Shown here: positions 17,668-40,324 of the stretch, piece by piece
How the letters are laid out: every line of letters starts with the position of its first letter
Position numbering within the stretch: the stretch's first letter is position 1
DNA from: Bacteroidaceae bacterium
GTDB lineage: Bacteria; Bacteroidota; Bacteroidia; Bacteroidales; Bacteroidaceae
Length of the DNA stretch: 40,479 nt
Assembly (NCBI GenBank): GCA_024398515.1
Contig: JAKSIZ010000020.1
Coordinates: 1-40,479, forward strand
Reading direction: 5' to 3'
Notes under the pieces: model-generated
Told to the model about the DNA's origin: nothing
The model's database searches: none
What the model saw: only the letters and a program-made list of their open reading frames with translations
Translations under genes and position numbers: made by a program

Positions 17668-17730
17668 CACATTCTAAGAATGTTCACGTGAACATTCTTA
17701 GAATGTTACGCCGAACATTCTAAGAATGTG
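17668..17730. repeat. Triple palindrome array 1 (23-bp period)
   Basis: Three 17-bp near-palindromes at 17668-17684, 17691-17707 and 17714-17730, for example AACATTCTTAGAATGTT: 7-bp arms, 3-nt centre, 6-bp spacers (cacgtg, acgccg), exact 23-bp period. Units 1 and 2 plus their spacer form one perfect 38-bp palindrome (17669-17706). TTTGC on the left mirrors GCAAA on the right. The geometry is identical to the arrays at 27740 and 37429, whose palindromes differ in sequence. It lies between convergent murF and purN. Confidence 0.93.
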
Positions 17731-17734
17731 CAAA

Positions 17735-17766
17735 GCCCCCCAACAGAGGTACCTGTAGAGGGGGGC
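17735..17766. terminator. Terminator between convergent murF and purN
   Basis: GCCCCCC (17735-17741) pairs with GGGGGGC (17760-17766). The loop contains AGGTACCT. GGGTTTTT occurs about 20 bp downstream on the plus strand. It probably serves murF, perhaps both genes. Confidence 0.65.
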
Positions 17767-24906: not shown

Positions 24907-24980
24907 GCTTCAGTAGCTCAGTTGGTTAGAGCACCTGACTGTTAATCAGGGGGTCGTTGGTTCAAGCCCATCCTGGAGCG
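24907..24980 (+). tRNA. tRNA-Asn (anticodon GTT)
   Basis: Full cloverleaf: acceptor GCTTCAG/CTGGAGC, D-arm GCTC/GAGC, anticodon stem CCTGA/TCAGG with loop CTGTTAA (GTT at 24941-24943), and T-arm GTTGG-TTCAAGC-CCATC with discriminator G. No CCA is encoded. The T-stem has one U-U mismatch (second pair), and the acceptor has one G-U. Confidence 0.95.
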
Positions 24981-26590: not shown

Positions 26591-27634
26591 TTATTTTTCG
26601 TGGCAGTGGCAATGGTCATGGCGGCGCAAGAATGCGTTGACAAGAAGCATTGCCAGCACGACGGTGCACGCTATGCTGAACCAGGATGTGCCTTCAATAT
26701 TATATAAGGAACTCGTAGGCACATTCAAGGCAAACCATGACGCAGGGCAAATCAAGTCAATTCCTATGCCGAACAGAACGGAACCGACGATGATCGAGAC
26801 AAGATAAGTGACGAGAGTCTTGCGACCAAGTGCCTTGCTAATAACGATTATCGACGCTAAATTGCACGCTGGACCTGCCATCAACAACACAAGTGCTGCC
26901 CCAGGCGTGAGGCCTTTCATCATCAGTGCAACGGCTATTGGTATGCTGCCGGTGGCACAAATATACATAGGCATTGCTATGCAAAGCACAACTAATATGC
27001 TAAGCATGGTGTTATCCTTGAATATGGCAAAGAAACTGTCGGGCACAAGAACCGTTATAAGTCCTGCAACAACCAGTCCGATGACAAGCCATTTGCCTAT
27101 ATCCTGCATCATTTCCACGAAAGCATAATGCAAACAATCCCGAAATCTATCGATTAAACCGACGCTTTTTGGCGTTTCATCTTCGCAACAACATTCGCAT
27201 TGTGTCTCATGAATCTTCGTTTGTCTGTCGGTCAGGTTCACCATTTGTCCGCCAAAGACAGCGGTAAGAAGTGCGGCAATCGGGCGAATGATTGCGAATG
27301 GCAAACCCATTAGTGACATGGTTGCAATGATGGAATCGACGCCGGTCTGCGGTGTGGCTATGAGGAACGACACTGTTGCTCCCTTCGACGCACCCTCACG
27401 ATGCAACGACATCGCGGTTGGGATTACTCCGCACGAGCACAGCGGCAGCGGTATGCCAAGCAATGCTGCCGCAACGACCGAACGCATATTGTTGCCCGCA
27501 AGATAACGGCTGTAGAGTGCCTTGGGCATGAATGCGTGCATCACTCCTGCAAGGAGAAACCCCAGAAGAAGGTAGGGCGACATTTCGTTTATGAGATTGA
27601 ATATCTCGACAATGATGTTGTATATCTGTTGCAT
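26591..27634 (-). CDS. Permease, SO_0444-like Cu/Zn efflux family
   Basis: 347 residues with about eight to ten hydrophobic segments. The motif GIPLPLCSCGVIPTAMSLH (around residues 59-77) contains the CSC cysteine pair, and MAGPACNLASIIVISKALG occurs in the second half. A Cys/acid-rich loop (QCECCCEDE, about 144-152) and a His/Cys tail (RRHDHCHCHEK) look like metal-binding sites. The family (permease DUF318/ArsP-like, SO_0444 group) is thought to export Cu/Zn or related metals. It is divergent from a Fur-family regulator, with candidate operators between them, which supports a metal role. Substrate not proven. Confidence 0.85.
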   Translation of the reverse strand: MQQIYNIIVEIFNLINEMSPYLLLGFLLAGVMHAFMPKALYSRYLAGNNMRSVVAAALLGIPLPLCSCGVIPTAMSLHREGASKGATVSFLIATPQTGVDSIIATMSLMGLPFAIIRPIAALLTAVFGGQMVNLTDRQTKIHETQCECCCEDETPKSVGLIDRFRDCLHYAFVEMMQDIGKWLVIGLVVAGLITVLVPDSFFAIFKDNTMLSILVVLCIAMPMYICATGSIPIAVALMMKGLTPGAALVLLMAGPACNLASIIVISKALGRKTLVTYLVSIIVGSVLFGIGIDLICPASWFALNVPTSSLYNIEGTSWFSIACTVVLAMLLVNAFLRRHDHCHCHEK

Positions 27635-27700: not shown

Positions 27701-27739
27701 AACGTTAGCGTTACTGAAGTCGAGCGTTAAAGTGCGCCA

Positions 27740-27802
27740 AACATTGCAGCAATGTTGGTCCGAACATTGCAGCAATGTTGACTCCAACATTGGAGCAATG
27801 TT
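27740..27802. repeat. Triple palindrome array 2 (23-bp period)
   Basis: Three 17-bp palindromes at 27740-27756, 27763-27779 and 27786-27802: AACATTGCAGCAATGTT twice and AACATTGGAGCAATGTT once, with spacers ggtccg and gactcc. Arms 7 bp, centre 3, spacers 6, period exactly 23. Outside the array, TGAAGTCGAGCGTTAA on the left mirrors TTAAGCGTTCGACTTCTGA on the right imperfectly. It lies between the divergent permease and Fur-family genes. Confidence 0.95.
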
Positions 27803-27902
27803 TTTCCGAGTTAAGCGTTCGACTTCTGAAGTCCGAGCGTTCAACCCGTTTAGTCATAACGCTCGTGTCAGCCAAACATGAAGCACGCCATAGCAACTGT
27901 TA

Positions 27903-27961: not shown

Positions 27962-28396
27962 ATGAACCACGAAGAAACAGCAAAGTTCCTTGCACAGCAT
28001 GGGGTGAAACCAACTGCCGTGAGGATGCTCGTATGGGAAAGCATAGCCCACTGCCACGATGCTTTCACGCTAAAGGATGTGGAAGGGTTGCAGCCTTACA
28101 TGGATCGCAGCAGCATCTTTCGTGCCCTGCGGCTGTTTGCCGAACATCATATAATACACGAGATTGACGACGGCACGGGGCAGTGCAAGTATTGTCTTTG
28201 CCGATGCGAAAACGACTTGCACCGAGGTCATGTGCATTTCTCGTGTACGGAATGTGGGAAGACCTACTGCCTTGAAACGACCGATATCCCTGCAGTTCGC
28301 ATTCCCGAAGGGTTCAGAATGGAGGAGGCTGAGTATGTAATCAAAGGGCTCTGCAGCCAGTGTACCGCATCAGCCGCCAAACGAGGTGAATTGTAA
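27962..28396 (+). CDS. Fur-family metal-dependent transcriptional repressor (Zur-like)
   Basis: 144 residues. The N-terminal winged helix includes HGVKPTAVRMLVWESI and the recognition-helix region MDRSSIFRALRLFAEHHIIH. The C-terminal dimerisation/metal domain has HRGHVHFSCTECGKTYCLE and CSQC, i.e. two Cys pairs of a structural zinc site, and the His-rich HVHF. This is the Fur/Zur/PerR layout. The subfamily cannot be fixed by eye. The divergent Cu/Zn-type permease suggests zinc or copper sensing. The stop codon (TAA) overlaps the ATG of the next gene (TAATG). Confidence 0.9.
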   Translation: MNHEETAKFLAQHGVKPTAVRMLVWESIAHCHDAFTLKDVEGLQPYMDRSSIFRALRLFAEHHIIHEIDDGTGQCKYCLCRCENDLHRGHVHFSCTECGKTYCLETTDIPAVRIPEGFRMEEAEYVIKGLCSQCTASAAKRGEL

Positions 28397-37428: not shown

Positions 37429-37491
37429 AAAACTGCTACAGTTTTCGATCCGAAACTGCTACAGTTTTGACATGAAAACTGCTACAGTTTT
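37429..37491. repeat. Triple palindrome array 3 (23-bp period)
   Basis: Three 17-bp units at 37429-37445, 37452-37468 and 37475-37491: AAAACTGCTACAGTTTT (unit 2 starts with G). Arms 7 bp, centre CTA, spacers cgatcc and gacatg, exact 23-bp period as in arrays 1 and 2. It lies about 90 bp upstream of the ABC exporter promoter, at the edge of a gene-free, repeat-rich stretch. Confidence 0.95.
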
Positions 37492-37565
37492 CCTCCAACT
37501 ATAAACCACATCCTCCGTCCCCCATGCGCTCACCTCTCCCTGTCCCGACTGCCACCCCGCCAGAA

Positions 37566-37614
37566 ACTATAGCCTGAAAGGCTTACACCTATCAGCCCAG
37601 GGCATAGCGACGCA
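37566..37614 (+). repeat. REP-like dispersed element, shortened copy
   Basis: TATAGCCTGAAAGGCTTACA, then CTATCAGCCCAGGGCATAGCGACGCA. Compared with the copy at 37628 it lacks the right arm of the CCCAGGGC hairpin, as if deleted between short GCGACGCA-like matches. Confidence 0.75.
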
Positions 37615-37627
37615 GACAAATGTAATA

Positions 37628-37735
37628 ATTATAGCCTGAAAGGCTTACATCTATCAGCCCAGGGCAGAGCGCAGCGCCGCCCTGGGTACATCGACGCAAC
37701 CATACGCTCTGTAAGAGCAAAAGCATTTGGCTCGC
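37628..37735 (+). repeat. REP-like dispersed element, full copy
   Basis: TATAGCCTGAAAGGCTTACA with an AGCCTgaaAGGCT hairpin, then CCCAGGGC...GCCCTGGG as a second hairpin (loop includes GCGCAGCGCC), then GCTCTGTAAGAGC as a third. I recall this kind of sequence as a dispersed intergenic repeat in Bacteroidetes; copy number in this genome is unknown. Confidence 0.75.
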
Positions 37736-37775
37736 CCATCAATCCTGTGTAATCATATAAATCATCGGCATGCCG

Positions 37776-39835: not shown

Positions 39836-40324
39836 TACAAAACAATTTGCAAATTCAATGATTGTTCTAGTTTGACAAGTGTGACAATCCCTAATTCCGT
39901 CACTTCAATTGGCGAGAGTGCTTTTTCAGGTTGTTCAGGTTTGACAAGTGTAACAATCCCTAATTCCGTTACTTATATTGGAAGTTATGCTTTTGAGGAC
40001 TGTGTAAACTTGGAGAATTTTTATGTTTCTTGGAGTAAACCGATATCAATAAATAACTATGTTTTCGATAGAGATAAAACCACAAATAAAATTCTAATCT
40101 CGTTGTATGTTCCACAAGGTAAAACGAAAATATATGAAAATGCAGGAGTGTGGCAAGATTTCTATGATATTCAGGAATGGGATCCATCTACGCCACCAAC
40201 ACCAGAACTTGAGGGCGATGTAAATCACGACGGTGTAGTTGACGTGGCAGATATTACCCGAGTGGCAAGTATAATCCTCACCGGCAAAGCAAAAGAAGAG
40301 GAAGATTTAGAAGAAGAATGGTAG
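39836..40324 (+). pseudogene. 5'-truncated BspA-like leucine-rich repeat/dockerin gene
   Basis: The frame opens just after a stop at 39833-39835 and enters mid-repeat: [20 protein letters not shown], then [20 protein letters not shown]. These are TpLRR/BspA-type repeats, normally present in many copies after a signal peptide. No signal peptide and no ATG precede them; only TTG codons offer a start. The C-terminal part has [19 protein letters not shown] and then a dockerin-like calcium-binding motif, [20 protein letters not shown], ending in an acidic tail. Intact relatives are surface proteins of several hundred residues, so this is most likely a 3' remnant left by deletion or insertion next to the ATPase module. 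Low expression as a short protein cannot be excluded. Confidence 0.75.

Follow-up and report, generated by a model that had tools for sequence, protein, structure and literature searches.

Three adjacent 17-bp dyads with short spacers, bound by cooperative dimers, make up the OR and OL operators of phage lambda, of which a phage genome has one or two sets. Noc, SlmA and MatP act at dozens of short palindromic chromosome marks that are single sites of one sequence, and the stoperators of mycobacteriophages are dispersed repressor sites that are phage-borne, single and asymmetric. To our knowledge, no sequence-defined marks are placed at an interval of about 10 kb. Bacterial chromosomes are described as consisting of supercoil domains some 10 kb long (PMC3420936, PMC3820752). 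REP, BIME and REPIN elements, which are associated with RAYT (TnpA-REP) transposases, are short intergenic palindromes present in many copies, in families that differ between species (PMC3733652, PMC6006769, PMC3116915, PMC2817692). The BrickBuilt MITE of Porphyromonas gingivalis combines a 23-nt period with dispersal and short inverted ends (PMC4596501).

The palindrome arrays described here resemble each of these repeats and sites in part. Like OR and OL they consist of three dyads of 16–17 bp with short fixed spacers, but there are many per chromosome; they are dispersed like the stoperators, and like the sites of Noc, SlmA and MatP they are many, short, palindromic and possibly chromosome-marking, but with three dyads, several sequences and a binder that is putative. 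A phage origin was rejected, the AACATTG, TGACTCA-type and AAAGTTG patterns having 0 matches in viral_contigs. With REP, BIME and REPIN elements they share many-copy intergenic palindromes in families that vary with the species, but they have three units, fixed spacers, even spacing and no RAYT nearby where tested. Membership of the REP/REPIN class by tag tetranucleotide was ruled out, as GTAG, GTGG or CGTC occurred within 0–2 nt of the palindrome foot on 6 of 450 unit sides of the arrays in the genome studied, about 16 being expected by chance (.035 per side). The BrickBuilt element has in common with the arrays a Bacteroidales host, the 23-nt period, the dispersal and the short inverted ends, but is built of spacerless direct tandem repeats of variable number, and the stem 'palindrom' is missing from the main text of PMC4596501. 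A minisatellite of that kind was rejected as well, since clusters of more than three units were absent from the samples of the genome studied and of the genomes G423, G424, G426 and G429. No published description of such arrays was found in the open-licence literature.

Three arrays in the window

The window, which is the whole stretch of DNA that was analysed, comprises 40,479 nucleotides. It contains three palindromes at a 23-bp period at each of the positions 17668, 27740 and 37429, just as the initial annotation had reported. Array 2, of the AACATTG family (27740–27802, no strand assigned, as for the other arrays and flanks), consists of 17-bp units at 27740–27756, 27763–27779 and 27786–27802, in which all six 7-bp arms are perfect, separated by the 6-nt spacers GGTCCG and GACTCC. 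Its left outer flank AGTCGAGCGTTAAAGTGCGCCA (27718–27739) is an imperfect inverted copy of the right outer flank TTTCCGAGTTAAGCGTTCGACT (27803–27824). Array 1, of the ACATTC family (17668–17730; units 17668–17684, 17691–17707 and 17714–17730), contains perfect 15-mers within the 17-mers, and in array 3, of the AAAACTG family (37429–37491; units 37429–37445, 37452–37468 and 37475–37491), one arm starts GAAACTG. The start-to-start distances are 10,072 bp from array 1 to array 2 and 9,689 bp from array 2 to array 3.

The genes bordering the arrays are ordinary. Array 2 lies between an ArsP_1 permease gene on the minus strand (26591–27634) and a FUR-family protein gene on the plus strand (27962–28396); the neighbours of array 1 encode a Mur ligase and a formyl transferase, and those of array 3 ABC-transporter and AAA ATPase proteins. 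Rfam models at gathering score matched none of the arrays, the sole match in the window being its single tRNA at 24907, between arrays 1 and 2.

Several other repeats are present in the window. A hairpin-like module, GCCCCCCAACAGAGGTACCTGTAGAGGGGGGC, adjoins array 1 at 17731–17766, similar to the CCCCCAACAGA modules that end many arrays of a further family, AAAGTTG. Degenerate units, AACGYTCRACTT-like and about 22 bp long, appear by eye to run outward from many arrays, as at 27803–27900 in the window. REP-like GCCTGAAAGGC and GCCCAGGGC repeats at 37565–37740 are of the kind that surrounds the Y1_Tnp remnant of this genome (L040), and form a repeat system distinct from the arrays. A 69-bp unit is repeated in tandem, in 1.9 copies, at 39862–39994.

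Families, abundance and spacing in the genome

The window arrays belong to dispersed three-palindrome families with dyads of 16–17 bp and 6-nt spacers, and the observation is both real and larger than first noted. A sample of 31% of the genome (2.65-Mb assembly, 88% complete), which was not random because part of its stretches were picked around known AACATTG hits, holds 75 arrays of three units, which fall into four arm families: 32 AACATTG, 23 AAAACTG, 5 ACATTC and 15 AAAGTTG, all with spacers 6,6. These counts replace a first one, in which loose matching had mixed the families. Of the fixed 7-3-7-6 layout initially proposed, the three units and the 6-nt spacer are constant throughout this genome, but the period is not: it is 22 in the AAAGTTG family (AAAGTTGTACAACTTT three times), which had been overlooked. 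When clusters were defined as at least two units or one perfect single unit, with three further one-mismatch singles left uncounted, the sample contained 79, comprising 75 three-unit clusters, 3 of two units and 1 single at a contig start; one of the two-unit clusters (C1:39954) is cut by the stretch end and proved, on joining of the stretches, to have three units. At L024:13911 a two-unit variant with 2-nt centres (7-2-7, AACATTGCCCAATGTT-like) is found, with an outer flank of like style.

Triplets of this shape occur above chance, as the initial interpretation required. In 817,754 b, a scan for shape only (6-bp arm, 3-nt centre, at most one mismatch, at least three units, any arm sequence) yielded 59 chains with a period of 23 and a total of 12 over the 29 other periods tried, against 17 chains in total, 1 of them at period 23, in three second-order Markov copies of the same sequence; in 431,896 b, with periods from 16 to 40 covered, 28 three-unit chains had period 23 and 4 had any other. 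The exact three-unit AACATTG pattern has 70 matches in the assembly and none in 59 other genomes, 35 of them congeners. Its two-unit form has 142 exact matches, and 144 with up to 3 mismatches, in one of 398 genomes of the genus, which is the genome studied; genome_contigs, a set from which the record of this genome is possibly absent, gave 0 matches. The AAAACTG pairs (up to 2 mismatches, 151 matches) and the AAAGTTGTACAACTTT pairs (107 matches) were likewise each confined to this one genome among 120. Three of the four families (the AACATTG, AAAACTG and AAAGTTGTACAACTTT patterns) are thus absent from the searched congeners, and their whole-genome pair counts suggest about 72 AACATTG, 75 AAAACTG and 53 AAAGTTGTACAACTTT arrays, the ACATTC family having been counted in the sample only.

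The arms are nearly invariant. In the sample none of 1344 AACATTG arm positions is substituted, as seen with a unit scan that is blind above 3 mismatches, and the majority base accounts for.74 of the 3-nt centres, for.54 of the spacers and, over the ten flank bases nearest the array, for.66 and.69; the other three families show 18 changes in 966 arm positions, 8 in 210 and 12 in 630. Since the unit and pattern scans permit few mismatches, strongly decayed arrays would escape them; inspection by eye revealed no empty outer flanks resembling a decayed array on C1, C12, C21, C23 and L024. The arms do differ between families, as first described, but their uniformity holds genome-wide for each family and not for single arrays only, and the homogenisation inside each array that had been proposed is not supported, the same arm sequence being found at dozens of loci. 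The spacers vary, as was noted, but most of those in the AACATTG family fall in a few classes (GGTCC- and GASTC-like), which appear in both orientations and orders.

Most arrays are flanked by imperfect inverted sequences, GAACGCTTAACTCGGAAA...TTTCCGAGTTAAGCGTTC, which are partly common to several families, and in some arrays the CCCCCAACAGA module replaces the inverted flank at one end. Terminal inverted repeats of the MITE type are found, imperfectly, on most arrays. As copies share flanks and internal order, the arrays were copied, which favours a mobile origin.

The arrays are evenly spaced along the chromosome. Over all contiguous stretches of this genome, with the two-unit clusters and the contig-start single included and the L024:13911 variant excluded, 57 intervals between arrays of all families have a mean of 10,343 bp (minimum 4,621, maximum 28,009) and a CV of.395. 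Simulated arrays scattered at random over the intergenic gaps of these stretches gave a CV of.809 ±.089, with 0 of 5000 simulations as low as the observed value, and had 26% of their intervals under 4 kb, where none was observed. The whole contigs C1 and C12 alone, with 25 intervals, show a CV of.409 versus.792 ±.114 at random. Two arrays next to each other share their family in 15 of 55 cases, where about 17 are expected, so that the exclusion acts across families. It is on account of this spacing that we prefer a chromosome-wide system to an ordinary family of repeats. In genome G423, 0 of 24 intervals are below 5 kb where uniform placement predicts 5.0 (P.002), but with a CV of.92 for these 24 intervals, taken from one family and an incomplete pattern, the result shows exclusion and not evenness.

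Arrays in other Bacteroidales

The best 80 of 177 loci encoding a relative of ArsP (best 67% identity), retrieved from other Bacteroidales with the permease next to array 2 as query, provided 1,350,952 b that were scanned for three palindromes with like arms. Several taxa contain arrays with unrelated arms, among others GGTSTGASTCASACC, CGCACCCGACGGGTGCG, AAGGTTAWTAACCTT and TTGAGCCGGCTCA, in keeping with the initial statement that the layout is conserved while the arms change. Plain tandem repeats, some of 4 or 5 units, also appeared in the scan and were not counted as arrays; a stricter scan gave 5 matches, of which at least one belongs to a longer tandem repeat, and the same scan of a first-order Markov copy gave 0. 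In the samples, genome G423 has 8 distinct arrays of three units with spacers 6,6 (10 rows, 2 of them duplicates because L165 overlaps L102), and G424 has three arrays with spacers 6,6 and one with 7,7, L103 and L238 being the same array. Some relatives have 7-nt spacers in one family: in G429 the spacers are 7,7 in 12 of 12 arrays; in G426 they are 7,7 in 10 of 10 arrays of a second sample, with one 6,6 and one 6,7 array in the first, and 6,6 in all 5 arrays of a second family, CGYACCCGWCGGGTRCG. A named isolate record, Prevotella sp. P3-122 (G422), is among the array-bearing genomes, with 99 matches to pairs of its own family at up to 2 mismatches. No 7-3-7-6 array was found in a thin sample of congeners (19 stretches, 348 kb, one stretch of just 340 b), where a looser scan listed one other 22-bp repeat, nor any array in a similarly thin sample of other families of the order (20 stretches, 275 kb), and the trait therefore looks patchy.

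Comparison of orthologous intergenic regions, which the initial annotation had suggested, showed that arrays and their dyads are kept at some sites and not at others. Arrays occur at orthologous places in L136/L148, L102/L103 and L157/L111, the last pair being atypical in its longer arms. Between G423 and G429 the gene adjoining the array aligns well and the intergenic flanks poorly, and 12 fixed positions in each of the three dyads are kept, while the spacers change in sequence and from 6 to 7 nt. Between G429 and G426 the gene end aligns and the intergenic DNA hardly, the three dyads are kept, and one spacer is seemingly inverted. A clean empty site was seen at none of the sites compared: for one G423 array site the matching flanks in G424 are 5.4 kb apart, and at the site of the L136 array L095, L096 and L117 have other 23-bp repeats instead. 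These other repeats, which are GGCTTGAATACAAC-like and about 23 bp long, lie at L117:4990–5380, L096:11340–11700 and L095:11330–11700, with several direct copies followed by inverted ones. A strand-symmetric repeat of the AGTGAAAAGTGAAGAGTGAAAAAT type was noted at L167:14300–14415, with many matches in G424, G426 and G429.

Possible operators, mobile elements or hairpins

The interpretation given initially is partly supported: the conserved layout with changing arms, its excess over chance and the distinction from ordinary REPs and from a regulon agree with the results, whereas selection on structure and homogenisation inside each array are not supported. In the explanation that we favour, with confidence just short of even, each array would be a triple operator of three adjacent 16–17 bp dyads, and such cooperative operators would mark the chromosome about every 10 kb. 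Each dyad would be the site for a dimer of a sequence-specific DNA-binding protein, with half-sites about one helical turn apart, and with dyad centres 22–24 bp apart neighbouring dimers may touch and bind cooperatively. Each of the arm families that coexist in one genome would presumably be bound by a protein of its own, and together they would serve a single task for the whole chromosome that keeps arrays at a density of about one per 10 kb; most likely this task would be the anchoring or insulation of chromosome domains, as loop or supercoil-domain boundaries, or a mark akin to nucleoid occlusion. The explanation starts from what is observed, namely the three-unit build with its fixed spacers, the large number of copies between genes, arms that hardly vary, the persistence at some orthologous loci, the even spacing across families in this genome and the recurrence of the layout with other arms in other Bacteroidales; the binding protein, the cooperativity and the organising role are what we infer. 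A task for the whole chromosome is suggested by the near-invariant half-sites, the persistence at some sites, the mixed neighbours and the even spacing across families. Against the operator explanation stand the fact that no binder was found among the scanned genes, the copied flanks, the gaps of up to 28 kb, the arm changes in the other families and an evenness tested in one genome.

More broadly, though here we lean towards doubt, some Bacteroidales may cut their chromosome into segments of about 10 kb by means of triple-dyad sites, in which several unrelated pairs of protein and site would be interchangeable, and the recognition sequences might be replaced from species to species under a constant architecture, by analogy with fast-evolving centromere systems. 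If so, evenly spaced, interchangeable and fast-evolving landing sites would constitute a directly testable chromosome ruler at the level of sequence.

A mobile-element origin of the arrays is likely, and the main rival to the operators is an element that is still mobile and shows target immunity. The arrays would then be non-autonomous, REPIN- or MITE-like elements of about 100 bp with inverted ends, whose dyads are recognised by a transposase, and target immunity or selection against close copies would even out the spacing; we regard this as a serious possibility, if a rather less probable one. It accounts for the outer inverted flanks and internal order common to the copies and for arm families that are species-limited in the searches made, and because the flanks are partly shared across families, one machinery could impose the cross-family exclusion. 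The arrays are also intergenic and away from gene starts, and the 40 scanned neighbours include one PDDEXK_2 nuclease-family transposase, but none of the recurrent neighbour clusters listed (262 neighbouring proteins compared, part of them annotated) looks transposase-like. A link to RAYT proteins was rejected: 5 of 9 other array genomes contain 8 Y1_Tnp loci, none with a triple array within about 1.5 kb, the remaining 4 have no Y1_Tnp match, and the Y1_Tnp of the genome studied sits among other repeats, of the GCCCTGAAAGGGC type. Together with the tag tetranucleotides, which are not enriched, this agrees with the initial view that the arrays are not ordinary REPs. Against mobility, slightly decayed AACATTG pairs are nearly absent (142 exact among 144 with up to 3 mismatches), arrays persist at some orthologous sites, and no target duplication was seen by eye in 22 rows representing 20 distinct arrays. 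If the arrays are mobile nevertheless, they would represent a new class of mobile palindrome with cross-family exclusion.

Structured RNA or a DNA cruciform, with the palindromes acting as hairpins (terminators, protection of mRNA 3' ends, a rod or a Y), is improbable, even though the arrays fold well. In all 10 example RNAs the folding energy (dG −27.6 to −77.2, given strand) is lower than the average of mono-nucleotide shuffles by over 3 standard deviations, and in 9 of the 10 the best fold, judged by eye, is a rod in which the first unit pairs with the third. A Y-shaped three-way junction was rejected in view of these rods and of S-position counts that back no pairing model. Pairing was assessed in a sister family, the GGTSTGASTCASACC or T family, the AACATTG arms being invariant in the sample. 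Across 35 T arrays (L177:17784 omitted), mostly from stretches chosen around known hits, the variable positions could pair in 29 of 105 cases in local hairpins, in 48 of 105 in the Y and in 51 of 105 in the rod, which is at or below chance and favours none of the three models; in G423 alone the counts are 1, 15 and 15 of 24, respectively. The variable pair is non-complementary in 76 of 105 units (75 S:S, 1 A:C), so that the proposed selection on structure is not supported, and a mismatch that weakens local hairpins is present in the commonest unit, GGTCTGAGTCACACC (72 of 105, both orientations counted). These non-complementary pairs, and the same arms at dozens of loci, are better explained by reading of the half-site sequence, as by a protein, than by pairing. 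Hairpins could account for the compensatory changes that keep the palindrome in the orthologs L157 and L111, but the dyad symmetry of a protein site would demand the same compensation, so that these changes do not decide. The presence of spacers in both orientations, one apparently inverted between orthologs, is as if hairpins form occasionally, but the outer flanks of AACATTG arrays pair imperfectly by eye and the even spacing is not predicted by hairpins.

The position of the arrays relative to genes, as derived from simple ORF calling, bears on hairpins and operators alike. The arrays of the genome studied lie in 32 co-directional, 25 divergent and 8 convergent gaps, at 9 stretch edges and once inside a predicted ORF, with orientation classes near their shares of intergenic length, while the T family leans towards convergent gaps (15 of 35 classed arrays versus 18% of intergenic length). 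From gene 3' ends the arrays are a median of 92 bp away in this genome and 78 bp in the T family, compared with 207 bp for random positions in this genome. Such closeness, which hairpins near 3' ends would explain, would equally be expected from terminators or from promoter avoidance, and the 25 of 65 classed arrays between divergent genes have no 3' end there. That the arrays are operators of ordinary transcription regulators is very improbable, for although the geometry is operator-like and some regulators occur next to arrays (Fur, MerR, LysR and two ECF sigma factors), the median distance to 5' ends (193 bp) is close to the random value (221 bp), the scanned neighbours are mixed and the spacing is even across families.

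Among 42 small genes with an array upstream, 41 were scanned (all except L069:9535–10341) and encode mixed enzymes and few regulators, with no recurrent family. No coherent regulon was seen, as the initial annotation had anticipated, and a regulon or an autoregulated cognate gene was rejected, the scanned neighbours containing no recurrent regulator; no array-binding protein was identified among them. The largest cluster of neighbours comprises 13 proteins, which seem to be secreted proteins with a common signal peptide and perhaps more in common.
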